DNA from: Branchiostoma floridae
Taxonomy: Eukaryota > Chordata > Leptocardii > Amphioxiformes > Branchiostomatidae
Direction of reading: 5' to 3'
Assembly (NCBI RefSeq): GCF_000003815.2
Contig: NC_049983.1
Location: forward strand, 23,491,494 to 23,555,493
DNA length: 64,000 nucleotides
The position numbers and the translations under genes are program-made. Under the pieces are notes generated by a model. That model made no database searches. It saw only the letters and a program-made list of their open reading frames with translations, and was not told the origin of the DNA. Shown piece after piece: positions 5,525 to 58,200 of the stretch. The stretch's first letter is position 1, and each line of letters opens with the position of its first letter.

Positions 5525-6876
5525 CGAGGGGCTAAAACCGTAATGGTCCTGACCCACTTCCAGTTGTCTGATCTAAATGAAATTTTGTATGTGTAATAAT
5601 TCATATCTCTATGGGTTATGTTGCAAAAGACAGCTCTGAACTAATTGTGGTTTCTGATTTACTGGTGTTTGAACTGAGTCAGGTGCGAAATGGACCAGGT
5701 GTGAAATGGAACCAGTTGAGTGTCGCGCAGTGATCCGGTTTTTGTATTTGAAAGGACGCACACCAAAGAAGACTTTTGATGAAATAAATGAAACTTATGG
5801 TGATGATGCCCCATCATATGACCTTGTAAAACGCTGGCATCCTGAATTCAAACGTGGCTGGAAGTCTGTGGAAACAGCTCCCAGACCTGGTCGTCCCTCT
5901 TCTGCCATTGATGAGGCATCCGCATATAAACGGCATGCCCGAGCGGTTNNNNNNNNNNNNNNNNNNNNNNNNNNNNNNNNNNNNNNNNNNNNNNNNNNNN
6001 NNNNNNNNNNNNNNNNNNNNNNNNNNNNNNNNNNNNNNNNNNNNNNNNNNNNNNNNNNNNNNNNNNNNNNNNNNNNNNNNNNNNNNNNNNNNNNNNNNNN
6101 NNNNNNNNNNNNNNNNNNNNNNNNNNNNNNNNNNNNNNNNNNNNNNNNNNNNNNNNNNNNNNNNNNNNNNNNNNNNNNNNNNNNNNNNNNNNNNNNNNNN
6201 NNNNNNNNNNNNNNNNNNNNNNNNNNNNNNNNNNNNNNNNNNNNNNNNNNNNNNNNNNNNNNNNNNNNNNNNNNNNNNNNNNNNNNNNNNNNNNNNNNNN
6301 NNNNNNNNNNNNNNNNNNNNNNNNNNNNNNNNNNNNNNNNNNNNNNNNNNNNNNNNNNNNNNNNNNNNNNNNNNNNNNNNNNNNNNNNNNNNNNNNNNNN
6401 NNNNNNNNNNNNNNNNNNNNNNNNNNNNNNNNNNNNNNNNNNNNNNNNNNNNNNNNNNNNNNNNNNNNNNNNNNNNNNNNNNNNNNNNNNNNNNNNNNNN
6501 NNNNNNNNNNNNNNNNNNNNNNNNNNNNNNNNNNNNNNNNNNNNNNNNNNNNNNNNNNNNNNNNNNNNNNNNNNNNNNNNNNNNNNNNNNNNNNNNNNNN
6601 NNNNNNNNNNNNNNNNNNNNNNNNNNNNNNNNNNNNNNNNNNNNNNNNNNNNNNNNNNNNNNNNNNNNNNNNNNNNNNNNNNNNNNNNNNNNNNNNNNNN
6701 NNNNNNNNNNNNNNNNNNNNNNNNNNNNNNNNNNNNNNNNNNNNNNNNNNNNNNNNNNNNNNNNNNNNNNNNNNNNNNNNNNNNNNNNNNNNNNNNNNNN
6801 NNNNNNNNNNNNNNNNNNNNNNNNNNNNNNNNNNNNNNNNNNNNNNNNNNNNNNNNNNNNNNNNNNNNNNNNNNNN
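5525..6876 (+). mobile_element. mariner-family DNA transposon inside the TM5 codons of GPCR copy B
   Basis: The element starts after TA at 5523-5524 with CGAGGGGCTAAAACC. About 180 bp later an ATG at 5706 opens a mariner transposase N-terminus: MEPVECRAVIRFLYLKG, then APSYDLVKRWHPEFKRGW and RPGRPSSA, the usual helix-turn-helix and linker. Sequence enters the gap at 5949 after 81 codons. On the far side (6877) receptor coding sequence resumes at the aligned position. Left end to right gap edge is about 1,350 bp, close to the usual 1.3 kb of mariner elements, so the gap probably holds the rest of the transposase and the right end. Confidence 0.75.
5949..6876. other. Assembly gap (928 N)
   Basis: Run of N inside the mariner insertion of GPCR copy B. 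Confidence 0.99.
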
Positions 6877-7344
6877 TGCCGATAACTACACAGAAGACGA
6901 TCAAATAGAAAAGCCCATAGATGTTGGAGACGTAGTCTCGACTGTAAGAACTCTTGTCCATTAGAGCGCAGATTTGTGAATTTTTGTTCCAACCGAATTC
7001 ACCATAGCCTAGAAACCCTGGAGCTACCAACAACCCACTCACAACCCACGATAACACGACCCACAGGAACGACCTGAAAGGACTGAACAGTTTCCTGTAC
7101 GTCTCTGTTGATTTCGTGACGCGTATGCATCGGTTAAAGGCGATCAGGACCATAGATAACAGCGATATGTAGATACTGAAGTAGAATAAGGCGCCTATCA
7201 TTGGGCACATGGCGTGTCCGAGAGAAGGGGCACCGATGATCGCGGAGGCTGTTGATACTGGGTACTGGAAACCGGTTATCATGACGTCACTGATGCTGAT
7301 GCTCAGGATGAAGGTGTGCGCGGACGTCCGTACCTGCGGAAATA

Positions 7345-7510
7345 ATACACTTGTATCATAATCATCATTATCATCATCATCATTATCATCATCACTATCA
7401 TCAACAACATCATCATCATCATCGTCATTATCATCATTAACATCATCATCATCATTAGCATCATCATCATTATTATCATCATCATTATCAATTATCATTA
7501 TCATTATTCG
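7345..7510. repeat. (ATC)n microsatellite in the last intron of GPCR copy B
   Basis: ATC/ATT tract just upstream (minus sense) of the TM2-TM7 exon acceptor at 7334-7335. Same intron position as in copies A and C. Confidence 0.85.
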
Positions 7511-8126
7511 CAGATCATTTAGCATAAGACTAGAAAGGCAACATGTTCACGACAATGCAAATGAAGACCTTTTGTCAAGCTACTCGCATACAATACTATA
7601 TCATTAAGCTCACACTTTCGTATCGTAGTAATGTAGCCACCCTACATCTGCTTGGTTTCCGTACATGTTGAGACAAATCCGCGGGGGGTACAAGGCCAAA
7701 TAAAGTTACGCATAGGATGATGAAACTGTCTTTTGAAAGGGACACGCTGTAATTTATGTAGACCACTGGAAGAATAGCTGGCAACATAATGTTGTAATAG
7801 CTAAAAGTGGATCTGAATAAAGTCAAGTCAAGACATAAACAGTCATAGGAAAAATTGACATAATTACAGAAATGTACCTGTCTGTAGGTGCAGAAGGTTA
7901 AGATGACCAGCCCGTTGCCGATGGTGCCCACGATGCTGTAGATGCCCGTCACTGTAGAGCTGACTGCCACTCCATATGCTGCTGCCATAGTTTTGTTCTC
8001 GGTGTCAGGTAGGGATGGGTTGCCAGGGGTAACCGATTGGTTTCCTACACAAAGAGACCAATAGCGGAGCTCGAGTGAACAAATCAAGGAAACCACGGGA
8101 CATTAGCAGCGGTACATATGTACATA

Positions 8127-9439: not shown

Positions 9440-10270
9440 GACAACGCCCCACGCCCGTAGCTTCGGTGGATCCATGGAAAATACAAAATGCCGGCGCGCA
9501 TCTCCCATATTATCTTACAGATTTCTCGACAAAAATGGTGTCGCTGTGTTTCTTTAGATTCTGGACGTCTTCAGCCTGTGTGCAGGGCACCCCTTGGTCT
9601 GTGGTATGGTGTGAAGTTTTACAAATAGCATATTCCACTCCTATACCTATGCTATGGGGCGACATATAAGATTGAGCAAATGACGAGAAAAAACAAGCCG
9701 TTAAGGGGGGGGGGGGCAAAAATATACTCATTTCAAGATTTCGTCAAGACCTATCCACACTCCAAATATCAAGAATATCTATCCAGGCGCTCTCGAGTTA
9801 TACGGTCCATCCACAAACATACATACCGTATGACCACACATACAATCGCTACAGAAGGCATAACATTCTTGGCGAAGATAAAAGATATACATACCTATCG
9901 ATGTCAACCAGAGCAATAGACTCGGTAACAGGCAGGTGAGTCTAGTCATTATTCTACCCGAGAAATAAAAAAATCACGTCGGAAAAGGGTGGACCTCAGA
10001 TCCATGCACTGCTTGCTGTAGAGCTTGGGTCATCAACACTGGTCTCTTACACAACTTTTTGTGTGCAAAAACGCAAATGGGACTGTTACACAAGCAGGTA
10101 AGGACCGTTGGCATGGAAACGGGTGCGCTACACGCGGTTACTTAACGATGATAACAGAATAAACCCAACCTGTTTAGAAATAGCCAATACCAGTATTCGA
10201 GTAGCCTCTTTGCACAATAATGTTAATCACACGTGAGAAAAGCTTGTTGTTGTTGTTGCCCTCGCTTTAT

Positions 10271-10993: not shown

Positions 10994-11281
10994 TAGCCTC
11001 TACCAGGCTCCGTGGATCGGTGGTCTAATTGTAGAAATTGGACAAAAAATAGAATCATAATAGTTCGCTTGGGGAGTTGGCCGGCCAGAAGAATCAAAAC
11101 CCTCACCTATTCATAGACAGCGATTAGTGGACTTCAAAGAACATAGTGACCCCGCACAGGCGTCGTGGTGAGGATTTTTATTCCTCTGGCCGGCTGACAC
11201 CCCTAGCGTACTATTGACTCTATTTGCCAATGGACATTTCTACAATTAGACCACCGATCCACGAGAGCCTGGTAGAGGCTA
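10994..11281. mobile_element. Intact 288-bp foldback MITE with long inverted arms
   Basis: Arms of roughly 115 nt run inward from TAGCCTCTACCAGGCTCC and its complement, with shared interior words such as GTAGAAATTGGACAAA. Left flank is ccatctgat at 10985-10993. The right flank was replaced by the adjoining LINE. The paralog at 3081-3982 still has both flanks. Confidence 0.7.
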
Positions 11282-11283
11282 CC

Positions 11284-13018
11284 TGCCTATCAGGACCTTA
11301 GTCCTTTATTATTTAATTTATTCATCAATGATATATCTGAGTGCTTTGACCCCACAAAATGTGACCCTGCAGTCCTAACCTCAAAATCTCTAAACTGTTT
11401 ATCCTGGGCAGACGATCTCGCTCTGATTTCATTGTCAAAACAAGGGCTACAGCATTGTATTGACTGCCTAGAAAACTATTGTAAGAAATGGAAGCTATCT
11501 GTCAATGTTTCAAAAACCAAGGTAGTTGTTTTTAGCAAAGGTTCTAGCAAGAATAACAAAGACCAATTCCATATTTATGGCAAAAATATAGAAATCACTG
11601 ACTGCTATACATACCTCGGCATTCCTTTCACATCCTCCGGAAAATTCAAAACCGCCAGGAAATATTTGAAAACCAAAGCAATGAGAGCACTTTTCAAACT
11701 CAAGGCTCTTTTACTCTCTAACAAGGACATTTCAATCAATCTCGGAAAAAATCTATTTGACAAATTTGTAAAACCCATCTTTATGTACTGTTCAGAAATC
11801 ACTTGCTTTGACCGCTTTTCTAAAAGTATAAGAATCATTGTATCACATACCAATAACATCTGCGAACCTTCCTCAAAGGTTTTTTCTACTTTACTTAAAA
11901 AACTTAATATTCTAGATAACTTTCCAGCTACCATTCGAAAAACCACCTCTTCTGCATTGAATACTACTTATGTTGTATGTTTGGAAAGAAATACAGATAA
12001 AGAAATACTATTGCGTCATGCCAATAGCCATATTTTACGAGATAACGGTTTCCAAATTATAAACCTAGACTCAAATCAACAAATTCCAGAATTTGACATC
12101 ATTGACATGCGCTTCCAAAAATTAGGCATTCATGCCAAAGCCTCAAACGATGGTGTCAGGGGAGAATTGGGAACTTTCCCAGCTAGGATTGATGCAGAAA
12201 TGCAACTTGTGAAATATTGGCATCGTTTAGTTAATCTGCCCGAAGATGCCCTTCTTCGTGATGAGGCATACAATACTGTTTCATTCGGAGAACATGATTG
12301 GATTGTCCACGTAAATGCGTAAAAAATATCCTCAACTACCAAGGCTTTGGACACATATGGCTGAACCCGAGGTCATACCACATAGACACAATCACCACTC
12401 AGTTACGACAACGTTTACAAGATATATACGTGCAAAATTGGCATTCCTCTATTCGAAACAATTCCAAACTCTCCTCTCTTTCTACATTGAACAAGCATTA
12501 CAAGCAACAAAATTACATTTCAACCATAAAGAGCCTTGACGCTCGTAGGGCAATCACACAACTCAGAATTGGCTGTCACAAATTAAATATAGAAACCGGA
12601 AGATTCCAAAAAATCCCTATCGATCAGAGGGTTTGTCCATTCTGTCCAGAGCTAATCGAAGACGAATATCACTTTATGGTTGTATGTCCCAAATATTCCG
12701 ATATACGCAATTCTCTATACAGAAGGCTGTCATTTTGTACACAAGGATTTATCCAAATGGACCTGAAGTGCAAATTCAGATACATAATGACATGTGACAA
12801 TCCCTGCATGGCAGATATAGGAAAATATATCAAAGAAGGTTTTGACATTAGAAATTCCCCAAATGATTGTAAAAGCCTCCAATGATTGTAAGAAACTTAT
12901 CCCATACTATAACTCCTGTATTAGTTAGATAAGTCTTAAGTTAAGTTATAGCACTGTAGTTATGTAGATGCCATACTTTGTACCTCGTACAATTGTTGTG
13001 CAATAAAGTTATGTATGA
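11284..13018 (+). mobile_element. 5'-truncated LINE: reverse transcriptase C-terminal half, one frameshift
   Basis: The reading frame begins in the palm region (DLSPLLFNLFINDI), passes the catalytic motif SWADDLALIS near 11405, and continues through 11432-12322. It shifts frame near 12310 and continues to 12885 with a zinc-binding cluster (CPFCPELIEDEYHFMVVC). The 3' end is CAATAAAGTTATGTATGAC. No RNase H domain follows, unlike the element at 42.35 kb. The target, compared with 3983-4030, lost a few tens of bases. The frameshift and truncation mean it is dead. Confidence 0.8.
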
Positions 13019-14999
13019 CATGAAAACGGGTGCGCTACACGTAGTTACTAAGCGATGAACACATTAATAGACAATTAATAATAGATGGGTTGTTGCCATA
13101 ATTCGAGTGTTAGTTTTAAAAGAGAGCTAGTGAGATCCTCTGAGGAAAAATAGACAGAGGCAGTGGCAGATCTTATAAACGAATCATTCAAGTTTTGTCA
13201 CTTTGAACATGTGTTTATTCATGAGAAAGCTCAAATCAGCCTACAAGCCGCTTTTCATTGAGGTCATGGGGTAATGGTCAGCTAAACAGAGATACAGATT
13301 ACATCATTCTAGATAGTCCCATAATCAATGTATCAACACACATCATTACATATACAAGGTACGAAAGGTACGAAACATATAGTTGAGAAAAAAGCTAGTT
13401 CTTGGTCCGTGTCCATCTTCTGATTGTCTCTCGCTTAGGTTTTGGGAATAGCCATAAGATTGCTTGTGTTTTGTCTGGTTGTTCTTATGCTTTGGTCTCT
13501 GCATTACACAGACATTACGTTTGCCGAAGAGGAGTGCACGTTGGTTAGCATAATGAAGGCTGTGCGATCAGTATAGATTACCCACCGCTGTAGAGGAGTT
13601 AGCAATCAATTTGCAGGTAATGAAACGGAGGATTAAAAAAAGGGCGCAGCGATCTTGTTGCGATGATCCTGAGTTTGAATATGACTCATTTTTCTTCGTC
13701 GGCATCAGGGTCATGCCTCCTCGTAATTTAGAGCTCGCAGACTCGTCGTCCGATCGATTTTCGCTACATGTGACGGGGCAATACAGGAGGGCCTGCATAC
13801 GGTAACGTGGCAATCGCACAGATGTTGTACGTACGCGCGTGTAAGCACGTGCAACCCACGTACCACTCACGTACGAACGATGCACGCAACCGGCTCACGG
13901 CCAGGCGTGGCGTGCAGACCACATATACATTACACCTTGCGCAACCGTGAGAATGACGTGTGTTGAGTCGTACTCCCCCCTGCTCTTTCAATTCCTAAAT
14001 GTGGCGGATGTGACGGACAAAAAGCACGTACAGCAGGTTGTGCCCTTAGCTTAAGTTAAGTACCGCCTCCGTACAAAATTCTACGGAGTCAAACGAATTT
14101 AGGAGCACGCAGACATGCAATGGCACTTGAAGTGCATGCAGTTTGGTAGCGACAAAGGTTTGACGGTTAGTTTACTGGCGCTCCGGGTTGGAACGGCAGC
14201 TGCCGCTTGCAGCGAACCAGGGCCTTAAAGGCACGCCTGAACACAGGCAGCTTCCAGGCGTACAGAAAAGGGTTCAGGACATAGTTCATGCGGTACAGCA
14301 TAAACAGCACTACTATAGCTGCCTTTGGCAAGAAGCCTTCATGCACATTGATGCTGAACAACAGCACGCTCGGAGCCGAGCAAACCGTGAATGCACCAAA
14401 GATGAGGAACATGTGTTTGGTGCGCTGGATTACCCTTTGTGACACGTATTGCTCACGGTTGGCAAGGTGTTGATTCGCTGCTGCCATGGTAACTACAGAA
14501 TCTTTCACGAAGAAGTAGATCCTCGTGTAGATGGCAATGACTACGCAGAAGACGAGCAAATAGAAAAGCCCATAGATGTTTGAGACGTAGGCTGGACTGT
14601 AAGGACTGTCGTGCAGATTTATGAGACAGACATGGTTATCTTTGCTCCAGCCGAATTCACCATAGCCTAGGAACCCTGGAACCACCAACAACACACTCAC
14701 AACCCACGACACCAGAACCCATAAGAACGACTTGATAGGGCTGAAGAGTTTCCTGTACGTGTCCGGCGACTTGGTGACGTGTATGTACCAGTACCATAGA
14801 TAGCGACGATACGTAGATACTTAAGAAGAACAAGGCTCCGACCACAGGGCACATGGCATGTCCGAGAGAAGGGGCGCCAGCGATCCTGGAGGCTGTTGCT
14901 GTTGGGTACCTAAAGCCTGTCATCATGACGTCACTGATGCTGATGCTCAGGATAAAGGTGTTTGCGGACGTCCGTACCTGCGGAAATAATACCCTTGCA

Positions 15000-15110
15000 T
15001 CATCATCTTGATCATCATCATCATCATGATCATCATCATGATCATCATCATCACCATCATCACCATCACCACCATCATCATCATCATTATTATTATTATT
15101 GTTATTCTTA
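15000..15110. repeat. (ATC)n microsatellite in the last intron of GPCR copy C
   Basis: Trinucleotide tract with GATCATCATC variants just upstream (minus sense) of the TM2-TM7 exon. Confidence 0.85.
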
Positions 15111-16049
15111 AACAGGCTATATAGATTCATAAATTATCCTTATTCACAAATAATTGAGCAAAGCCATACAAGTAAAGAATTTGAAGAGGAACGACGGTAT
15201 TATGTGCACGTTGAGACAAACCTACAGGGGGCACAGTAAAAAAGGAAACTGTCTATCTGTAGGGCTCGCTGACATCATAACAGTCAGAAAATAATTTGAC
15301 AGAACTACTCTGTCAATGGTGGGAAATGTTTATTTCCAAGCAGATCCCACGGTAGCATAAGATATATAGTATCAAAAGCTGTCAGAGGAGTGGAGCCGGT
15401 CTAGGAGTGTTTCGCTACATTCCTTGGCCAGTTTAGTACTTATCTTATGCCATCGTAGGATCTGCTTGGAGATTAGGGAAACGTACCTGTCTGTAAGAGC
15501 AGAAGGCCAAGATGACAAGACCATTGCCTACGGTACCCACGAGGCTGTAGATGACCGACACCGTGCTGATTACCACTTCAAATGCTGATGTCACGGTTTT
15601 GTTCTCAGAGTCAGGTAGGGCTGGGTTGAAAGAGGCAATAACAAAAATGAAGTCAAACCCCACGATAATAGTAATGTAGGTTTCAGAATCGTATTCGATA
15701 TTCTGTATGTACATGTTAATCTTTGTATGTTAGAATTTAGATTATTTACCTGTTTCAATCACTTCATGTATTTGTTTTTGTTCACTTGCAATTAGCCCCA
15801 TTGGCATGAATTTGCAATAAAACCTTTATCAGGTCTACAATAACCGGTTGGTTAGCTACACGAGGACACCAATACCGGAGTTCTAGTAAACAAATCACGA
15901 CAAGCATACGAGAATACCAGCCCGTGGTTATGTGAATATGTCTAACCTGACGCAAGTTTGTGATCTGTATATTGATTTTACATTCCCTGTTCTTCATATG
16001 TCTCAGACTATGCCTGGAAGATAATATATAGACATACACCAGAATCCAC

Positions 16050-26652: not shown

Positions 26653-29600
26653 ATGGGATCTCTCTCCAACATTTGCTCGAGACTGTGGGATCTTGACCAT
26701 AACAGGCTGAAGAAAGGGGTGGATTACGAAATAAAACTCACGCCGTCAAGAAAGGTAAGTGATTATCTATTATATAATCAAGCAATCGGTCAATATATCG
26801 ATTTCAATCAATCAATCTATTTATTTATTTATTTATTTCATCTTGAAACAGATGGGTAGCCCCTACAACAGTGTATAGTTGATTTCCAAGGGGGCCCATC
26901 AAACATACATGTAATCAATCAATCCATTCACTCATTCGTGTTTTGAGTTAGATTAATCGAAAGTCCTATCTTGTGGGTCTAAAGTGTGGCTGAAAATAAT
27001 AGAAGCATATTGAATACCACAATCTGCAACTAAAACAAGGATTGTAATGTTACAATTCAACGTGTTGTCTTGTTTTGCCCTTTGTCCGGTAACGCTGTGT
27101 AGTGGCCCGCTTTGGTTATCGAAATAGCACACGGGGGGAAGCACAATGGAACAATTGTACAGGAGACACGCACATGTAGTTAGTAATACGAAAACACAGT
27201 TAGGTCAACCTATATAAAACATATCACACAGGTTGACTTCATGGGTGACGGTGAAGAAAAATGTAAACCTCCGAATTTGGTGCAAAATAGATTGATTGGT
27301 CCAAAGGTAAAAAAATCAATAAGACTTACAAGAGTGGCATATAACTAACAGTGCACAGGCATCGGTATCATATTTTCACCGGTCTTAACCTGCATGCAAT
27401 CGCATTACATCGCTTCAAGGGGATTCCATGGCATGTTACTTGAGCTTTGAAGTTCCATTTGTCATTGCAGGTTACGAAATTGTTTACCTTTGTGGACACC
27501 AGAAAATTGGGGAACATTCCAACGTACAGTGGTGAGTACAATCTCGATAGTATCATAGTGTGTACAGGAAGAGATATCCTAGTCGACACTTTAAACACGG
27601 TTTTATATTTGTTTTTAGCACTATGTCTAGTGCTTTTTTTCCATTGAAACGACCGCATAGGGAAAAGAAATGATCAAACGTATTAGTGCGTGCGGTACAG
27701 AAGCATTGCTTGCTTGTTTGCTTTCAAATCGATACTGCTTAGACAGTAGCTGTGTTGTTGTTTTTTGTGTGTGCTAAATATGGCAATATGAAGACATTTG
27801 CATAACAAATGAGGAAATACTAAAATTCGTAATTCAGCGCATTGTAACGCCTTTTATTTCAGCCTTTAGTGAGCTGCTGAACAACTACAAATCTGAGGCT
27901 TCAGAAACTGAGGTGGTAACATCCAGGCAGAGGATCAAGTCTCGAAAGTTCCTAGATCGTTGCCTGGAGACTGATGTCATGAAAGAGGCATACTCCTACT
28001 TGTTTCGCAAAAGTATGATTAACTAATTTGCATACTTTTGTTTTGTGGTACACCACACGACTTATGATTTTCTTTGAAAGACCTTCGATTTCGCCAATGT
28101 TAACGTTATGTTCTAGATAGCGTGTGCAGTTTTAATTGTAGTTGGTCTGAAGATAGTGTGAAAATAGTATATTAACAAAGACCTTGCTGGTTCTATGGGG
28201 CCTTGGTCTACATACACAATGGGCAACGCTTCACCTTAACTTTTTACTAGTCACACTCACTGTTTCATGATCATTCGCTAAAAATTCATGCATCAATTAT
28301 TAGGACTTTTACCCCCGGGTGACATGATAGACTTCAGAACGAAGCTGTACGAGCTATGGTTCGACCTCCACCCTAGGCCTAGCGGAGACAGCACACTTAG
28401 GTATGTGCAACTTAGGGCGCGGTCGCATAGGTCGTGTGATCACCGTACGGTCGCGATCGCTAAAGCTATAAGTGCACAATTAACCCGCCGTACGTGCAAA
28501 TACGTGCTGTTTACGTATCAAGACGTGGGCAATCTTTTGGGATCCGTAAGTGGTAAGTACCGCCTCCGTACGAACTCGTAGGGAATCGGACGGATTTTGT
28601 AGCACGCAGACACGCCGTAGAACTTAACGAGCAGGCAAAACTTTGTGTGTCATCGGACTCCGGATTCGCCGCCCGTACGTGCCAGTACGGGCGACGCGCC
28701 TGCCCTGTACAGCCTGAACGTTTTCAGAAATACGTGGCGGACGTGGCCTCCCAAAAAGACGTACGGAAAAATTGCACGTACGGCGGGTTGTGCCCTTAGC
28801 TTAACGTGGGGCATTTTTCAGGACAGCCGTGCATGTGTCCTGCAAAGTTCAGCTGTCTTGCTGAACAGAATGCTGTCTTGGGTCCTTTTAGGTGGTTTGT
28901 TCTGTCACAGCCTGCTTGAAAATACCACAGCATCAAAATTGTTCGACGATCGCACGGCGTATGTGACCACGCACTTATGAAACAGCATCAGTCAACTTTG
29001 ATATGTTTTCGTGATTGCCATATTCCGTCAACAAGAAATCAATTTGGTTCGATTGTAATCTTTATCTGCTTACACATTGTATAACAAAACATAGAAAAAT
29101 TTTCTCAACTTTTGATTCCTACCGTTATTCATTCCTCGAACTACAGATCGGCGTTTGAACACGTCTTTGTGGGAGAAACACAACGTGGCCAGGTCATTGG
29201 CTTCCACAACTGGGTCCGGCTGTATGAGGAGGAACGTCAGGGGAACGTCAGCTACAAACGCTGTCGGGTTCGTTTTTGGTGGATTCAATCTTTAAACTTA
29301 AATCTTATTGTCTCTATCTCAGATATGTCTAGATTTCTTGTTCTGTATTGAATCAAAGCTTTTTCACTTAACTAAATGTCTGTAGTTTACGATCCGATTG
29401 ACTTTTCTCGCCTTTTTAGCCTCATGCATGTGACGACCACATCATCACGATAGACTTTAGTTGGAAGGGTAGGAAAAAGAGCTTCGGCAGCTTCTTCCTG
29501 GGCACGAGCCCGGAGTTTGAGCTGGCCATCTACACCGTCTGCTTCCTGGCAGCTGGGAAGGAGGATGAGACCATGGTCATCCTTGGGAGCGAGCTTGCCA

Positions 29601-32600
29601 CAATCGTCACTCACCATGCGAATGGCCAAATCGGAGCTTCCTATCCCAAGCATCTGGAGGTAAGATACGGTTCAGAAATTTTAGACCTTACAAGAGGGAC
29701 AGATGTGCGTCTCTCTTGTTAATTGTTTAGCGTAACTTTGCTTATGTTCCTAATTTCAACAAATGTGATACTATTTGTATGTTTACTTGCTTCTTTCACA
29801 GAAGAATACTCTTAACTTCTTCATGGCATGACATATTCACAAAAAGTTGTGATGTATGTTGCTGCTCTTTAAAATAGTGTACCCAGGTCAAACTTGATAT
29901 AATTCTCAAAGAGCATTCCGAAGCAAGGCAATCTATTTCAATTCGTCATAGCATCTGTCCATTTGTCGTTCTTTGGCCCTGAAGTAGTTTTCTGTTTTCT
30001 TTTCATCTCACAGGCACAGCGAAACATGAAGGATAAACAAAGCCTGCTCTTGCGTCTCTGGAGTACACTTTATACCCAGCTGAGTGAGCGGGTATCGGGT
30101 AGGTCCTTAAAAGTACAAGATTCCCACAAAAAGGAGGAACCCTTACCCTCTGCGCATCCAAGGTCACGTGTGGTAAATCCATCCTCATTGTATCCCCATC
30201 CCATAGTAAATTCCCCAACCAAACCGGAGTCCCGACAGGGTCCGGGCAGAAAGGGCAAAAGCCCTTCGCTCTCACGGTCGCGAACAGTTTCTTTATCCTC
30301 CTTGTATTCCCATCCAATGCAAAATATCTCGTCAAACGAACGGCAAAAGCTATCATTAAAACAGGAGAGAAGCAAACCTGTATCTCAAGAACAGACATTT
30401 GGGAAACAAGACGTCCTCTTACGTACTTACAGTCCATCGCTCCTTGACAGGACACAGGAACTTACTCGGTCCACATTGGTGCGACATTCCGAAATAAAGG
30501 ACCAAAGGCCTTCGTCATCACAGCTACTTTGTTATAAAGAGTCTTCGCTATATCCCCACTATAGGCAAGATACCCATATCCAAGTAGGATCTAAAGGCTC
30601 ATCAACAGAAGAAGGACTAAAGTCCTTCTCCCGAACAGACATAGGCAGACTTTCTTCTACCGAACAAAAAGAGACGACCGAGAGACCAAATGTCTGCAGG
30701 CGTTTTTACACAACAAAACCCCATCGTGAGGTACAGGTTCGGGATAGAAGCTCATCGCCGATGGCTTCTGAGACAAGGGATAAACCGTCTTTCTCGTCAC
30801 AGCCACGCACAGCTCTTCGATCCTCATTGAGTCTCATTTCACGACAGCGTGTCCAAGTCCCTGAGGAATCAAATACGAGCTCGTCAGATGACGAAGATGA
30901 GCACGTTTCCATCCTATCAGACACGGTTAGACCTACATACCATCAGTACCAGATGAAAGAAAGACAAGACATCGTCTCGCGTCCGTTGGTGACAACCTCC
31001 CAGCTCGGCACACGGGTCCCGGACAGGTCCTCTTGGCTACAAGGCTATGACAGAAAAGAGGTTATGCCATCCTCCACACAGCTACAGGTAAAGGCATCTA
31101 AAGCTTCTCTATCCCCATTGCATCCCTCTTCCAAACATGATGTCCGAAATCAACTTAAACCAGATAAAATGCAGTCATTTGGCGACAAGAAAAGCATTCA
31201 ATCAACACGAGACAAGGCCGAACCCATGTATTACGAACAGATCGAGATGCATGAAAAACGGATCGTTCGAAGCCGACTCGCATCAGAGGTAAAATTACCA
31301 CCTACCAAAGAGCAAAAGTCACCAATACAACCTGCTAAATTCAGAATATCGCCAAGTGATGGGAGCCAGATAACTGAAAAACAAGATAACGTCTCGTGTC
31401 CGTACCCTACAGCCGCCCTATCTAGGACACGGGGTCCTGCTAGTTACTCATGGATGATAGAGTCTGACAAAAAGGAGGAAACAACTTTCGCTCCACAGTC
31501 GCACACAGATTCATTATACCCACTTTATACCTATCCAAGACATTCTGCCTTCAGTAAAGTCAAGTCTAAGATTATCCCGTCAGATGACAAAGAGCGAAAG
31601 AGCGTACTCCTAAGAGACAGGGTCCGACCCATCTCTGGCGGACAAAGCAAAATGAATGATAGACAAGGAATCCGGACCCAACCCACGCTAAATGTGAACT
31701 CGTCAGCTGACCAATGTAAGACAGGTTCGCTGCAGGCAGTGGCTGGCAGACCTATCCCTGACGAACGAAGAGAGATGACCGAAAGACGTGACGTCTTCTC
31801 GCGTTCTCACACCACACACCCCCACAGTGAAATACAAGATCGGGATAGTCCCTCATCTCTGCCTGATTATGCGACGAAAGACAAACCGTCTTCCTCGTCA
31901 CAGTCACGCACAGTTCGTATATCCTCGCTGGGGCAGTACCCAAGACGGCATACTCTAGTTCAACAAAAAGTGAAAGTGGACAACTCCTCAGATGACGAAG
32001 GTCAACAATTTCTACTCCGAACAAACAGGACCGAAAAAATATATAATGACAAATACCAGATTCCTGAAAAGCAGACCTCCTATAATCATCTTGGCACAGG
32101 CTACCCACCTGCTTTCGAAAGCCCAAAGTACCCATTCCAACGAGACACGACCAAAGCTTTCCGTCACGAACGGACCATGGTGCCTAATACTCAGGCTTTA
32201 AGCGCCCGATTCAAATCCCTAGACATCTTTTCAGCTGACATAGACCAACAACTCCCGCTCAAACGGGACCGAGTCATATCTTCCGAGCAGAGCCTGATAC
32301 CAGGGAGACAAGCTGCCCGCGACACACTCGAGTACAGGGAAATCTCGCCGACAGACAAGGAGCAGAAGATATCAGTGCAACAAAAAAGGAGCAAACCACC
32401 ATCTCAAGAACAGAGACAGACATCTGGAACACAAGACGTCTTCTTACGTACTTACAATCCGCCGGTCCTGAGCAGGTCACAGGAACTGATTGGGTCAAAA
32501 TTGATGCGACGTGCAGACATGAAGGAGCAAAGGCCTTCGTCATCACAGCCACTTAATTATGAAGAGTTTTCGTTATATCCCCACCATAGAGAAGATACCC

Positions 32601-33355
32601 ATAACCAATTAGTATCTAAAAACTCAACAATAGACGAGAGACAAAAGTTCGTCTCCCGAATTACAGACATAGGCAGACCTTATTCTGACGAACAAAAAGA
32701 AACGACTGAGAGACCAGACGTCTGCAGGCGTTTTTACACGACAAAAACCCATCGCGAGGTGCAGGTTCGGGATAGACCCTCATCGGTAAAGGGTTCTGAG
32801 ACAAGGGACGAACCGCCTTCCACGTCACAGCCACGCACAGTTCTTCAATCTTCAGCAAGGCATGTCCAAGCTCACCATGAACTGAACATAGAAAACTCGT
32901 CAGATGACGAAAGCCAACAGTCTTCATTCGGACAAAACGGGATTAAAAATCACATATATATTGATATGACGTCTGGGTCGACGGCAAGACCACCCGAATT
33001 CGACATGACACCGTTGCCTCAGCGACCCAGCCATCGCACACAACACCTGGACAATCGTACCTGTGTACCAGACGTTGATTCATATAGTGATACCGTCAGT
33101 TACACAGACCATATCCACCCCAATGTGCGTCAGGTAAATGACCATGTACAGTTGGACATAGGGCAGACTGAACAGAGCCCTCCTTCCAATAGGCCATGTC
33201 CCCAGCGAGAATCACTCAAGGTGGACCCCTCGCAACCTTCCCCGATGCCCTTAGCTAACGACTCTCCGCCCCAGGGTTGGAGCCCTGTAACATACATCAT
33301 GTCCTCTCTAGTTTGGGCATTCCAAACTCGCCCTTCAAAAGTAGAGATTGTTTAA
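26653..33355 (+). CDS. EndoU-domain endoribonuclease with a very long repetitive C-terminal tail
   Basis: Seven exons: 26653-26754, 27471-27531, 27863-28012, 28304-28400, 29147-29267, 29420-29659, 30014-33355. All junctions keep frame, giving 1,370 residues. Residues 5-257 form an XendoU/EndoU domain (LWDLDHNRL, SELLNNYKSE, FEHVFVGE, GFHNW, DFSWKG). Putative catalytic residues are His142, His157 and Lys193, all present. EndoU enzymes cleave single-stranded RNA at uridines using a metal, leaving 2',3'-cyclic phosphate ends; that is family knowledge. The tail (258-1370) is one exon, rich in Ser, Arg, Gln and Lys, built of degenerate units of about 90-120 residues with SSQ-RT, SSLYPH, SSDDE and ERQDV-SR motifs. 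The start at 26653 has a strong context (GCCATGG); an in-frame ATG at 26608 would add 15 residues. The donor after 29267 (GTTCGT) is weak. Confidence 0.85.
28404..28802. mobile_element. CGTACG-rich non-autonomous DNA element in an EndoU-gene intron
   Basis: Partly inverted ends: CTTAGGGCGCGG at left, TTGTGCCCTTAG at right, with matching inner AACCCGCCGTACGTGC words. Relatives flank the GPCR genes at 4790-5050 and 13800-14060. Confidence 0.45.
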
Positions 33356-41958: not shown

Positions 41959-44900
41959 ATGGCCGAAGTTGGGAGTTTGCAAGTCGACCACAGTTACAAA
42001 CGGGTCGTAGAGAGCTGGTTTCCAGACTTATTCCGGAACGAACAACCAAAAGGCAAAGCTAGTGATGCAGGGGAAGCAAAAAGTGACGTTGGGAAGAATA
42101 GGAGCGAGACTGAGAGGTAAGAGAATGGCGTATTTGTGGACGCCGTTTGTGATTTTTTTTGGGAGGGGGGCGTGATGTGCGTACACGTGTGTACGAGTTT
42201 GTAAAGGTTTCCTGGCGCAAAACTGAGAAAATTCAATTGCAATTTTTTAATGTATAGTTCTGTTCCTTGTCAAGTAAGGTTTGGGAAGACAACGGCAAAT
42301 TAGAACTCTTAGTTAAAGTAACATGTTACGTTACATGTATTGCGCAATCAATAGGATCATTTCACTTCCTCCCTTCACCATGGGCAGCATCATTGGGTCC
42401 TTTACAGCTACAACCATCACCACCGGGGGAAAAGACAAGGCACGAGGGGAAATCCTGACCATACTACAAGACATCACAAGTAATAACGTACCCACCACAG
42501 TCATCTTCACAGACGGCTCAGCCCTTGGAAACCCTGGGCCCACTGGTTGCGCCGCAGTTGTGTATGAAAACTGGGGATGCTCTGAGCCATACGCTGTACG
42601 CAAACCAGTAGCCAGCAAATCTAACAACTACGAAGGGGAACTTGAGGGACTACACCTAGCCATAGACACCATCACCAGAAGACCGACCACATCAAACAAG
42701 ATACTCCTCCTCTGCGACTGCAAATCTGCGATTGAAACAGTGACAGGGGTGCAGCAAGTGGAAGCCTACAACAGCCTGATAAACACACTCAGAAGCAAAC
42801 TCAGCATACTCAAATCTAAAGGCTACACCATACAGATCACCTGGTGCCCAGGACACATGGGAATTCCTGGTAACGAAATTGCAGACAAAGAAGCTAAGCT
42901 AGCAGCAGAGGAAGCAAGAAACTGCCAGAACCACACATCCTGGACAAAACAACAAGCCATGAAACACATCGAGTCACAAGCACATGAGAGATGGAACAGA
43001 AGGACCAAGCTGAACACAAGAAGTGAACACATGCAGAAAATCGCCACCAACATGAAGAAGAAGGGACAAACACTGGGAAGAAGAAACACACAAGTCATCA
43101 TCAACCAGCTGGTGAGCGGCCACACCAGACTTAACTCCTATCAAAACTGGATGAACCCTGAAATCTCACCTAGCTGCGCAAACTGCGGTGCTGTGGAGAC
43201 CACCAACCACTTCCTGTACCACTGCCCTCGCTATGAAAAGGAGAGACAACACATGCTGCTAGAAGTGGAGAACATATTTGAGACATACAACACAGCAGGG
43301 GACAGCAGAGACACCGACATCACCACGCTGGCTGGAATGAGAGAAGACCTGTCAGAAGGAATCAACAAACAGATGTACATGGCCTTCTCCCAGTACATTG
43401 AGAGTACACACCGTTTCGACGTACTCTCCTAGAAACTCCTCCAATAACTCTCAAGCACAAGGAACCAAGAGTTAAATACCAAGAGAGACTATTGACTCTA
43501 AAGCAAGCCATGTGTTACTCAGCACCAAGAGACCACGTCTAGCGAAATAATAGACGTTAAATGAGGACAACAACAACAACAACAACAACAACAAATTTAA
43601 AAATTTCAAGAAATTCGATTCCTTGTAATAAGAATCTTGAGTGACCAGCGTTAACTCTTACAGAATGACAGCGCATATATGTAGTGTATTACATCTAAGA
43701 TGCTCTTTTTATACCCCCTATATATATTAAAGGGATTAATACATCATACACTCATCCCTTTAATTTTAAGTTTTAAAGTAAGACTCAGGAAGTTACATGT
43801 CAGCAAGATGCGGCATTCAGAAAAAAAGTTTCCTTTTTAAAATCACCTTGAAACGTCTTTAGTAGCGGACTGTCTTTAATTCCTTTGATCTCATCTCCTC
43901 AGTACCAGTTTAGAAAAGCCCTCCCTGAAATCTCAGGAGAAGAAGAAGCAATCCGTTCCCATGGCAACCAAGATCGGCAGTCTGGTGGAGGGGAAGATCC
44001 TCCCAAAGCTGAAGAAAAGACATCAGCAGCAGCAGAACCAGCAGGGAGGTGCAGGATGTTTGTTTGCTTGTTTGTTTGTTTATTTTGTAAGATCATAGAG
44101 CATAACACACTCAAGGCATGACACACCAAATTTTGTACAGTGACAACATCCACAGGAAAACAAGCAGAAAGGTGGGGAGAATATTTGTTTGTTTGTTTGT
44201 TTATTTTCCATGATTAGACTACAGAATAAGACATTCAAGGCATGACACACCAAATTTTTTATGTGTCAAAAGACAACAGGTGCAGGAAAACCAGAAGAAA
44301 GGTAGGTGAATGTTTGTATATCTTGCATAATCATAGAGCATAATATTGAGGCATTTGAGGCATGACACACCAAATTTGTACAGTGTCAAAATACAACAGG
44401 TGCAGCAGAACCAGCAGAAAGGTGGGGATAATGTTTGTTTGTTCGTATAACCATAGCATTCGTCAGTCTTGTACCAGTATCAAAGGCACTACTATAAGCT
44501 GCATAAGACCATACTACATTATCTTAAAATTTGATGGACCCCATTTCTTATTTAAGTGTGGTGGGTTCTTTATCATGCTTGAGATGTCGCTTTGTCGATT
44601 TATTAGCATCGATTATGTCAGAAGAATTAAAACCATTTTTCTTTGCTATAGCAGTGTTGGGCAAAATGACTAGATATCAACTTGAACTTCTTTTGATAAA
44701 TATTGCAAATATTAGATATCTGTTTCTTAAGATGAAATTCAAAAGGTCTTCATTGCTTCTTACTAATTCTTATCCAGGAAATCCTTGTAACAAAGTGCCC
44801 GCAGCTGACCCAGATGAAAGTGACGACCAGGACAGTAAGCTGAAGTCACTGTCTCAGCAGAAACAACAAGTTAACACACAGCAGCAGCAGGGAGGACAGA

Positions 44901-51364: not shown

Positions 51365-51652
51365 GGAGTGTTATGTTCTAAAGTTGAAATTCTGTTCTAA
51401 GGTTCTGTTCTAACGTTCCATTTTAGTGTTCTGTTCCAGTGCTATGTTTTAATGTTGGAATTCTGTTCTAAGGTTCTGTTCTAACGTTCCGTTCTAGTGT
51501 TCTGTTTCAGTGTTATGTTCTAATGTTGGAATTCTGTTCTAAGGTTCTGTTATAACGTTCCGTTCTAGTGTTCTGTTATAAAGTTGAAATTCTGTTCTAA
51601 GGTTCTTTCTAAAGTTCCGTTTTAGTGTTCTGTTCCAGTGTTCTGTTCTGAA
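51365..51652. repeat. Minisatellite built on GTTCTGTTCTA
   Basis: About 280 bp of 10-12 bp variants (GTTCTGTTCTAA, CGTTCCGTTCTAGT) with a higher-order period near 70 bp. Related to the array at 56382-56728. Confidence 0.75.
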
Positions 51653-55212: not shown

Positions 55213-58200
55213 ATGGCAGACGAGGGACCGACAGCCACCTTACCGGCGCTGTACATCCCTCCCCTCACCGGGCCGGAGGAGGCTCAGCCGGCGGTGGGGG
55301 AGGCGATGCTGCCCGCCGGTGGCGACGTCAAGCTGCCCTTCCTCTCAGGTAAGCCTTATCACAAACTTTCACGCCTCTTAAGAAAACTTTCTTAACCCCA
55401 GGGATATGTTCTGGATCAGAGGAGTCTTAAAAATGCGTCTTACACGACTTACGGGACTTTACGGCAAGGAGTTTAGCTGCAGGAACTTGAGGAATGTAAT
55501 CCTGTTTCTTAGCTGGCGAACCTGGCGGATGGCTTTGGCGCTGTGTGAGCCCAACCATGTCGCTAGGGTGGGGCTTTAGGAAACGTCACTGGTGCGGGAG
55601 CAGGACGTTCTGTTTGTGACAAAAAGCGACGAAATGCTAGCGATTGGTGTTCAAGCATGTTCAAGCATATCTATATTTTTTGGCTCAATTTGTGTTAGTC
55701 ATTTTGCTCGCTTAGTAAAGCATTCTCACGAAATCATCACCTGAAATGCTAGGAGCTGCAAAATGTACAACAACGAACAGGGACTATACATATGCACACA
55801 GTGTGCTTCTTATTCAGATGTATTTGGTACATTACTAAAGGATCATTATTTGTTTTTAGTGTGAAAAAACTGTACGTATACGTTTCTTGTCCTTTTGAAA
55901 ACGTTGTGTACCTCTGTGAAGCAGTGTATATATTTGACTACGTCGACACAGATTTAACTAAAGCTATAGAATCAGTAGCGAGTATTCAGCTTTTAGCCTT
56001 TTCCTTGTATTGATGTCAACTCCATGAAAACTGTTAAGAAAGTGCTTTAGTATCTAATAGTAGTAAAGCAGCTTAAGTGTGAGTCACTGAAATAACGTTA
56101 TGGCAAAGCTTGTTAGGAGACATTGTTTACGCAACAAACAGGCCAAACTTCTGTCAAAGGTTATCTAAGTGTACTGAGTGACCTAATGTAATGAACAGAT
56201 TAACTGCACGAAAAGCACGACAAACAAGAAATAGTAACATATACACATTTATCCGTCGTTACGTATCTGTTAGGGATGCATTACGACTCTCCAGGACGAT
56301 AGAAACAACCTTAATTAAACTTAATTGAACTATAATAAAATGACGTTCTAGCTATCTTGCAGGTTACTGCCTTTTTTTAGTAGTGTTCTGTTCTAATTTT
56401 CTGTTCTACTGTCCTGTTCTAGTGTTCTGTCTAATGTTTCGTTCTAACGTTTTTTATGCAAGGCAGGTCTGAGTGCAAAAGATCTGGATGAGGAAGTTAT
56501 CCGAGCGAGTGTTCTGTTCTAATGTTCTGTTCTTGTGTCATGTTCTGATGTTTTGTCTTGGTGTTCTGTTCTAATGTTCTGTTCTAGCGTTCTGTACTTA
56601 TATTCTGTTCTAATGTTCTGTTCTGGCGTTCTTTACTTATATTCTGTTCTAATGTGCTGTACTTATATTATGTTCCAATGTTCTGTTCTAACGTTCTGTT
56701 CCAATGTTCTGTTCTAACGTTCTGTATGTCCCGCAGGACTGGGCGGCGAGGCGCTGGCTGAAGAAGTTCTCCGAGCTCCGCCCGAAGGCGACGAGGCGGA
56801 GAACGCGGACCTGCTCTCGCCCGACAAGCTGCCTCCCATCCCCCATCCCCCCGTCAGAGTAAGGCGCCTGTTTGTTTGTTTGTTTGTTTGTTTGTTTGTT
56901 TGTTTGTGAAAATAATAGTTTGATTGATCCTACAGTCAAGGCTCCAAGTTAAGGCGCTTACGTTGTTTGTTTGAGGGCAGAATGGTCTGGTTCTTTCTCC
57001 CATCCCCCGTCAGGGTAGGGTCCTATTGGTTTTTGTGTTTTGTCTATTTGTTTGTAGACAATGTAGAATGATTATCTCTCCCATCCTTAATCGCCTATCA
57101 CCTAGAGTAAAACTACAAGGGACTGCAAGTTTTATTACCAACTTGTGTGTGCTGAAGAAAATTATGTCCACGCCGACGGAGTGTTTTTCCAGTCATTTTA
57201 ATATCGTCATTACCTCCTGTAGTTACTACGCATTCTGAAGTCCAGACACAAGTTACAAATTAGCAAATATAAAACACGAAATGTAAGCATGCACACTAAA
57301 ATATATGAGCACGACAGCTACACTGAAAATACGTTTAGACTGTTCGTAAAAGTAATGAACTTGAAATTATTAACATCCAGCTTAAATTGCCTACAAAAAT
57401 GACAAGAAATGACACATTAAAAGGGCGAAACAACAACCTGACACACGCATGATGATTTATACCAAACTAATGTAGATTTATTTACTTAAAAGCAGTCTGT
57501 CGATGTAAAGCGCCACCACCCTAATCTCGAACACAACACGAGTTTACATTGTTAAGAGTGCTCCTACGCGCACATATAAGAGTGCTCTTTTTATGTTTGC
57601 CGTCTGAAGTGGGCCGGTTTTCTCTACAAATGGCCCGGTCTGTGTCCTGTCCTCTCCTGTAGTAGTTGTCGATGGTGTTTACGTTTCTTCCCTATTGTAG
57701 TCTAAGTGCTACCGGTTCCATTAAACGTAAGCTGTCTTTTAGAATCGAAAATTCGTTTGCCCCCCCCCCCCCCTTAAGTTGTTTATCAAAGACCAGTTTC
57801 TTGCTATTTTTGCTGCGACGTTCCCACGATGGGAGCATTCTAAATAAAATCAATTATCGCCGAGTTGTGCCTCCATTGTGTCACCATAAGACTATTAGAA
57901 AAACGTCTTAAAATCTGATTTGAAATTCGTATTGTCCAGGTAGACTACGTGACGTTTACCTTGAATTGACCGCTTTTCTTCGGTTATTTGGACCTTCTTT
58001 GGTGCCATTTTAACATCTTCCCCGACTGTGACATTCACAATCAACTCAATTATCGCAGAATACACCCTTTTTTTGGAGATACAAAGACTTCAAGGACAAG
58101 TGAAAATCTCATTTTCCTGAGGCGTCGTTTGGAATGCTCTTTTTTCTTGGCTTCTGTTTTCTCTACACTTGAACCGACCACTTGTTGGATTCTGTAATAG

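Follow-up and report, generated by a model that had tools for sequence, protein, structure and literature searches.

A stretch of 64,000 nucleotides (nt) from the genome of the amphioxus Branchiostoma floridae (NCBI RefSeq assembly GCF_000003815.2, contig NC_049983.1, positions 23,491,494 to 23,555,493 of the forward strand; hereafter the window, numbered from its first letter) contains a gene of the EndoU (XendoU) family of ribonucleases. The gene is predicted from its sequence to have seven exons on the forward strand, read in a single frame and separated by introns that are all of the GT-AG type (Table 1). Its product of 1,370 amino acids (aa) would consist of a nuclease domain of 257 aa followed by a tail of 1,113 aa, the latter encoded by a single exon of 3,342 nt that joins the sixth exon in phase 0 (29659 to 30014). 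No runs of N occur within the gene. The model opens inside the domain, with its ATG at 26653, and an ATG start lies at the matching place in two of the paralogs described below (P2 and P3). No signal peptide was seen by eye, no predictor having been run, at the N-terminus of the model, upstream of which further exons may exist, and no somatomedin-B domain is found in the gene model, the part that was scanned.

The first 257 residues match the Pfam family XendoU (PF09412) along positions 2-262 of 262 (E 3.8e-69; 233.3 bits, the cut-off being 32.3), and a search of the PDB aligns them with Xenopus XendoU (2c1w) and human ENDOU (9ftw). The catalytic triad of human EndoU, formed by H285, H300 and K343, is kept as H142, H157 and K197, and E147 stands for E290, a glutamate through which calcium is linked to catalysis in the human enzyme (PMC11275989; PMC, PubMed Central). 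The nuclease seems ordinary and is probably active. We infer its switching by calcium from homology to human EndoU, and the cleavage at uridylates dependent on calcium or manganese, which is a trait of the family, is putative here. A preliminary description of the window, made from its letters only, had placed the end of the EndoU domain at residue 257 and its phase-0 junction to a stop-free exon of 3,342 nt, and both the gene model and the PF09412 match agree with it.

Three tests that are independent of homology indicate that the tail is coding. Its frame shows no stop in 1,113 codons, whereas the other forward frames contain 48 and 67 and the reverse frames 70, 34 and 32; dinucleotide shuffles of the exon carry a mean of 43.9 stops, with an open forward frame in none of 1,000. 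The period-3 signal of the exon reaches 6.2, the maximum among 100 shuffles being 2.9, and the spacings of the repeats, detected on the DNA without regard to frame, are multiples of 3 in nine cases out of nine. The resulting tail is basic (isoelectric point, pI, of 9.6; net charge +36) and contains 14.6% Ser, 9.2% Arg and 3.1% Tyr. Apart from one helix at either end, it is predicted to be disordered: FoldIndex is positive in 3% of its windows versus 55% of those of the EndoU domain, and AlphaFold, run on the tail alone as a single sequence, gives a mean predicted local distance difference test (pLDDT) of 32.6, with 1,068 of 1,113 residues below 50, a value that supports disorder without deciding it, as folded proteins may also score low in single-sequence runs. 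The long disordered tail on a complete EndoU that had been proposed beforehand is thus upheld. The tail has no match in the PDB at E<=10 and none over the cut-offs of Pfam, and so neither an RNA-binding domain nor the MOV-10_N family (PF21632) is recognised in it; a match to CATSPERE_NTD2 (E 0.069), below the cut-off, was taken as chance. The protein ends in PSKVEIV, which is not a Cys-a-a-X (CaaX) end, and the single pattern match to such an end near the gene, at 35340, was judged implausible.

Up to position 32953, the tail can be divided into twelve degenerate units, whose borders were drawn by eye following self-alignments and whose length is about 93 aa. Their consensus reads roughly.S.EQ.qm.ERQDV..R.y.T ... 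PSSSQ.rT...SSLYphpR ... SKnSS.DE.QK ... RP. The preliminary description had counted on units of 90-120 residues with one SSDDE-type motif each: the degenerate units stand, their length has to be amended (three units have 40-42 aa and one has 122), and the claim about the motif was too strong, since the exact SSDDE occurs three times in the tail. The pair of copies noticed at 30387-30920 and 32404-32930 was recovered by suboptimal self-alignment as residues 107-299 versus 780-971 of the tail (62% identical over 188 aligned residues), and the partial third copy suspected near 31745-32010 proved real in the DNA repeats, the self-alignment and the division into units. Eight more registers align at 22-31% identity and all registers together span nearly the whole tail, a coverage that has no shuffle control; a BLAST comparison of the tail with itself returned the full diagonal only. 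In a leave-one-out test with hidden Markov models (HMMs), from which the near-identical partner of each unit was also excluded, 11 of the 12 units exceed all 500 of their own shuffles. The score of U8 is weak (reached by 13 of 500 shuffles), the last 133 residues of the tail do not behave as a repeat unit (65 of 500) and two control stretches of the EndoU domain give no match (188 and 179 of 500). This test is not fully independent, because the units were picked from the same sequence. The ratio of nonsynonymous to synonymous substitution rates (dN/dS) is 0.71 for the clearest duplicated block (bootstrap 0.47-1.09) and 0.68-1.33 for four other pairs. When units U10-U11 were compared with the whole genome of this animal (513 Mb in 431 contigs), no other copy was found at E<1 among the best candidates, which are those that the search scores. 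Beyond the exon itself there are seven weak matches (E 1.9-8.5), and inspection of two of them (L053 and L054) revealed nothing related.

The end of the tail is of another nature. A search of the same genome with the whole tail retrieves, besides the gene itself, seven other loci that match solely inside residues 993-1108 (E 1.2e-15 to 9.2e-6), a region hereafter called END. With END alone as the query, the same seven loci appear at E<=1e-3, followed by a match on contig C11 (E 0.22), recognised as gypsy by its adjoining integrase-type sequence, and by two further additions at E 2.3 and 3.9. Six of the seven loci sit in frames of at least 413 aa, the seventh (C12) in one of 137 aa, and five match the integrase core. 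Two of them (L025 and L027) carry the rve, Tf2-1-like SH3 and integrase p58 C-terminal domains over the Pfam cut-offs, and three more (L026, L028 and L029) share their protein text and match the integrase core; L030 shows a zinc-knuckle-like stretch only, below the Pfam cut-off. END aligns with these proteins until the gypsy frame ends, with 39-46% identity, and with 65-69% identity over 91-284 nt at the DNA level. By these alignments, END and the C-terminus of a Ty3/gypsy polyprotein are homologues; END would have been taken from such a polyprotein, or would share ancestry with its C-terminal tail. Its comparison with three of the seven loci gives dN 0.41-0.45 and dS 1.14-1.41, and this dN/dS of about 0.3-0.4 indicates that at least one of the two lineages has preserved the segment as protein. 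AlphaFold, supplied with the alignment of END and its gypsy relatives, predicts with low confidence a C-terminal helix only (pLDDT 48.9; predicted template modelling score, pTM, 0.18). When integrase was sought in the window with a gypsy query, only the END part of the query matched, besides matches at E 2.4 and above. The tail had previously been read as repeats throughout, and its retrotransposon-related C-terminus, which only a genome search could reveal, had been overlooked.

The direction of the transfer can be approached through the gypsy elements themselves, with the proviso that the genome searches with the integrase core and with END score the best candidates only. The END-bearing subfamily has integrase cores that are 97-100% identical at five loci, plus a 90% fragment at C11, and its sisters are represented by fourteen longer loci with 59-63% integrase identity and three fragments with 60-66%. 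Since END-type ends occur in this one subfamily (the five loci and pieces at C11, C12 and C13), and none of the fourteen sister loci shows an END match at E<=10, the gypsy family might have captured END from the host gene instead. Among the sister loci, the C-terminal ends were read in four (C7, C207, C8 and C13). Those of C7 and C207 are made of a basic stretch, the motif LPxYLxDFVFPxDAF and acidic Ser-Asp residues, and they match the initial portion of END in its gypsy-subfamily form at E 1e-6 and 1e-5, values inflated by a proline-rich linker; C8 matches weakly, C13 does not match, and END of the host gene matches the sister ends weakly. The start of END thus looks native to gypsy, because the ends of C7 and C207 align with it, and a gypsy-to-host transfer is therefore favoured, without being settled, and capture by gypsy seems unlikely.

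The genome contains 35 places that match PF09412, which were grouped as 12 genes including the present one; the others are referred to as P followed by a number. A tree built on collinear exons joins the gene with P1, P2, P3, P4, P8, P9 and P12 in an eight-gene clade (support 92/96). All eight members have a candidate tail exon behind the EndoU domain, and a clear phase-0 GT donor was seen by eye straight after the domain in seven of them (P1, P2, P4, P8, P9, P12 and this gene). The more distant P6, P7 and P10 end at the end of the domain, and the last exon of P11 was not found. A C-terminal CaaX box is expected to be prenylated, and we take the CIIL and CTIL ends of P1, P3 and P4, whose tails have about 42-74 aa, to be of this type. 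The two candidate last exons of P1 are possibly alternative. A stop in the family match of P3 had raised the idea of decay, which was rejected: the frame of the exon is uninterrupted, and this stop sits in the bases before it. P2, the paralog whose last domain exon is most similar to that of the gene, is followed by an acidic repeat frame that may not be protein, because it is minisatellite-like and other frames are open too. As for P9 and P12, their tails match the MOV-10_N family, and the tail of P8 is 69% identical to that of P9. In the region of exon 5, P8 (L017) reads GLQNW where others read GFHNW or similar, so that Gln replaces the second catalytic His and the enzyme may be inactive. 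Two further observations were made around the EndoU cluster. An EndoU first exon that is not assigned to any gene lies at L011:1585-1680 (C5:23461585), followed by an assembly gap region, and is possibly part of P4 or of another paralog; inside the cluster, L011:6509-10000 holds an open frame of 1,164 aa that reads like a Helitron-like protein.

A search of the genome with MOV-10_N gives four matches over the cut-off, two of which are the tails of P9 and P12, and the other two adjoin helicase-like frames that by eye resemble true MOV10 genes. A MOV10-like helicase gene, also recognised by eye, is found at C5:23297252 (L048), on the same chromosome as the EndoU cluster and about 145 kb from it. 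Amphioxus is described to have three Mov10 genes, and the mov10 genes of such species to lie on one chromosome (PMC9319325), in agreement with the presence of two helicase-like genes on C5. To inhibit human immunodeficiency virus (HIV), Mov10 requires its N-terminal half, which almost suffices for the effect (PMC2816699). In the case of LINE-1, the essential regions are 563-675 and 907-1003 (PMC12140422) and the helicase motifs are required (PMC3475670), so a MOV10_N tail alone does not imply antiviral action.

With moderate confidence, we regard the gene as a member of an EndoU family whose post-domain exon is an exchangeable C-terminal cassette that sets the location of the enzyme. Given that the exon layout is common to the subfamily, the last exon would carry replaceable sorting or docking information, which suggests that this animal redirects the enzyme by swapping tails. 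The cassette of the present gene would be a disordered arm of about 1.1 kilo-residues, made of a short helix, the twelve units and a gypsy-type end with its own helix. The units would have arisen by repeated in-frame duplication and would act as a spacer or multivalent scaffold, END would be the docking element, and EndoU would be kept in a compartment of the cytosol or the nucleus rather than secreted. In a similar way, the CaaX-type ends of P1, P3 and P4 would attach EndoU to membranes, and the MOV10_N tails would bring it to whatever binds the N-terminus of MOV10. The tether suggested by the preliminary description is compatible with such paralog tails; that the tail exons differ among paralogs, which required the genome, had escaped it.

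Several points weigh against the exchangeable cassette. Every splice junction is a prediction, and all comparisons are within the genome of one species. P3 has no clear donor after its domain, the 603-aa tail of P2 may not be protein, and the tail of P8 is just below the Pfam cut-off and absent from the genome matches of the MOV-10_N family. The branching within the eight-gene clade is mostly unresolved, and for this reason the order of the tail changes cannot be read. The repeats are weakly constrained at best (0.71, up to 1.09), which fits a spacer as well as a tail that has no selected role, and there is no known partner for END, the repeat unit or the MOV10_N tails.

A tail without a selected role is an alternative that we consider unlikely: tolerated baggage, that is, an intronless stretch that turned into a last exon and grew by duplication under near-neutral drift, on a nuclease that works without it. 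A dN/dS between internal copies that is not distinguishable from 1, the lack of another genomic copy of U10-U11 among the best candidates and the predicted disorder of almost the entire tail would all be expected from it. An open frame of 1,113 codons with all nine spacings in frame would nevertheless need selection against truncation. The dN/dS of END against gypsy also argues for constraint, which may lie partly or wholly on the gypsy side, and sorting or interaction tails are still recognisable in paralogs at the equivalent exon. On the side of the exchangeable cassette, a bolder proposal, and one that we hold to be clearly improbable, is that lancelet evolution produced a set of cytosolic EndoU nucleases aimed at retroelement ribonucleoproteins (RNPs) by the swap of the last exon. 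Three copies would have acquired the N-terminal domain of MOV10, which is a helicase known to restrict retroelements, and this copy a gypsy docking tail, which would make the gene a domesticated, calcium-gated restriction nuclease. The gypsy-tailed EndoU would then sit where the own protein of the retroelement sits and would cut RNA there; some anti-retroelement role is possible. Very doubtful too is that multivalent repeats drive condensation or RNA tethering, which the preliminary description had suggested, the helix of END being incidental. The tail is indeed basic, rich in Arg and Ser, repetitive and predicted to be disordered, but no Pfam match over the cut-off points to an RNA-binding domain, where the tail of a paralog can be identified it is a CaaX-type end or a MOV10 N-terminal domain, and condensation cannot be told from composition. 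Finally, a split into two genes, or a choice between last exons, in which EndoU would normally end in intron 6 and the big exon would belong to another transcript, is most unlikely: exon 6 stays open for 60 nt past its donor up to a stop at 29720-29722, P1 with its two candidate last exons makes alternative ends possible in the family and the junctions are known as predictions only, but a consensus-like donor and acceptor (unscored) are in matching phase and the donor position recurs in six paralogs.

Over the window as a whole, Rfam at its gathering scores found nothing, and no tRNA was detected. Two GPCR-like (G-protein-coupled receptor) stretches at 5795-8102 and 14167-15133 on the reverse strand, which resemble melatonin-type receptors, appear to be tandem copies, one of them split by an N gap. 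Frames at 11276-12885 and 42317-43432 on the forward strand read by eye like reverse transcriptase and RNase H parts of a non-LTR (LTR, long terminal repeat) retrotransposon. A tandem array at 51367-51649 (three copies of a 71-nt unit, 92% matches) contains 13-nt TTCTGTTCTAAGG-like subunits, and related arrays lie at 56384-56725.

Table 1. Features of the EndoU gene and tail exons of its paralogs. Plain numbers are window positions; L and C prefixes denote loci and contigs of the same genome.
Feature	Position	Strand	Remarks
Exon 1	26653..26754	+	EndoU residues 1-34; ATG within GTCGCCATGGG
Exon 2	27471..27531	+	gene model
Exon 3	27863..28012	+	gene model
Exon 4	28304..28400	+	gene model
Exon 5	29147..29267	+	catalytic H142 and H157, plus E147 (human H285, H300, E290)
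Exon 6	29420..29659	+	catalytic K197 (human K343); phase-0 donor GTAAGA at its end
Tail exon	30014..33355	+	1,113 codons and stop; ctgttttcttttcatctcacag before it
Predicted helix, tail start	30017..30097	+	tail residues 2-28; block pLDDT 55-78 (AlphaFold)
Twelve degenerate units	30014..32953	+	nine long (79-122 aa), three short (40-42 aa); self-alignment, HMM test
U1	30014-30379	+	repeat unit
U2	30380-30652	+	repeat unit
U3	30653-30934	+	repeat unit
U4	30935-31225	+	repeat unit
U5a	31226-31351	+	repeat unit
U5	31352-31630	+	repeat unit
U6a	31631-31753	+	repeat unit
U7	31754-32041	+	repeat unit
U8	32042-32278	+	repeat unit, weak
U9a	32279-32398	+	repeat unit
U10	32399-32680	+	repeat unit
U11	32681-32953	+	repeat unit
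Clearest duplication, copy A (U2-U3)	30332..30910	+	62% aa identity to copy B
Clearest duplication, copy B (U10-U11)	32351..32926	+	62% aa identity to copy A
END	32990..33337	+	homologous to Ty3/gypsy polyprotein C-terminus; tail residues 993-1108
Predicted C-terminal helix	33284..33328	+	tail residues 1091-1105, inside WSPVTYIMSSLVWAF; resembles gypsy C-terminus W-[NS]PV---MT--V-AF
Candidate polyadenylation signal AATAAA	33939..33944	+	sequence motif
P1 CaaX-type tail exons	L009:4766-4987 and 7645-7791		CIIL and, in the second candidate exon, CTIL before stop
P3 CaaX-type tail exon	L010:9588-9734		CTIL before stop; second copy 9751-9864 reads on past CCTIL
P4 CaaX-type tail exon	L014:2423-2548		CTIL before stop
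P2 acidic repeat frame	C5:23448766-23450574	-	603 aa, EQDDCSSED-type repeats, phase-0 acceptor; in L009 and L010
P9 MOV-10_N tail exon	L018:4517-4762, C5:19.84 Mb	-	PF21632, 35.9 bits (cut-off 27.4)
P12 MOV-10_N tail exon	L021:3967-4212, C1:8.82 Mb	+	PF21632, 29.8 bits (cut-off 27.4)
P8 MOV-10_N-like tail exon	L017:6600-6842, C5:19.83 Mb	-	27.2 bits, 0.2 below cut-off 27.4

Which targets animal EndoU proteins cut, and in what locations, is a standing question, and one nuclease with either a CaaX-type end, MOV10_N or a gypsy-ended repeat arm offers a natural experiment on how a single RNase can be redirected. A family of cassettes predicts distinct locations for the EndoU forms. Were the forms with MOV10_N and gypsy tails to act on retroelement RNPs, EndoU would have to be added to the nucleases known to counter retroelements.

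What is new here is the exchangeable tail exon and its retrotransposon-related end, and no description of EndoU tails of such kinds was found in the parts of the open-licence PMC literature available. With animal EndoU/XendoU (2c1w and 9ftw, with PDB chains of 292 and 410 aa), the gene shares the same complete domain, the His-His-Lys triad and the calcium-coupling glutamate, but its model shows no apparent signal peptide or somatomedin-B domain and adds 1,113 residues at the C-terminus. Both secreted and cytoplasmic forms of animal EndoU have been reported (PMC11275989), and EndoU has also been treated in the context of bacterial toxins (PMC3482391). P8, P9 and P12 belong to the same clade and have the same exon layout and phase-0 tail exon, but instead of a repeat they carry a domain of about 82 aa that is related to the N-terminus of the MOV10 helicase. 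P1, P3 and P4 lie in the same cluster on C5 and also have a tail exon after the domain, although their short tails end in CIIL or CTIL, unlike this gene. In the Ty3/gypsy polyprotein, the region equivalent to END is the C-terminal tail that comes after the integrase (rve and SH3/p58_C), whereas here there is no integrase domain and the segment is joined to a host nuclease through repeats that have no gypsy match. Fv1 is a restriction factor of retroelement origin. The p22/p18 of yeast Ty1 are restriction factors made from retroelement parts as well (PMC8458377). Like them, END would be a piece of retroelement protein able to meet the products of the element itself; the difference is that here it is the C-terminal tail of a polyprotein, placed on a nuclease whose activity against the element is hypothetical.

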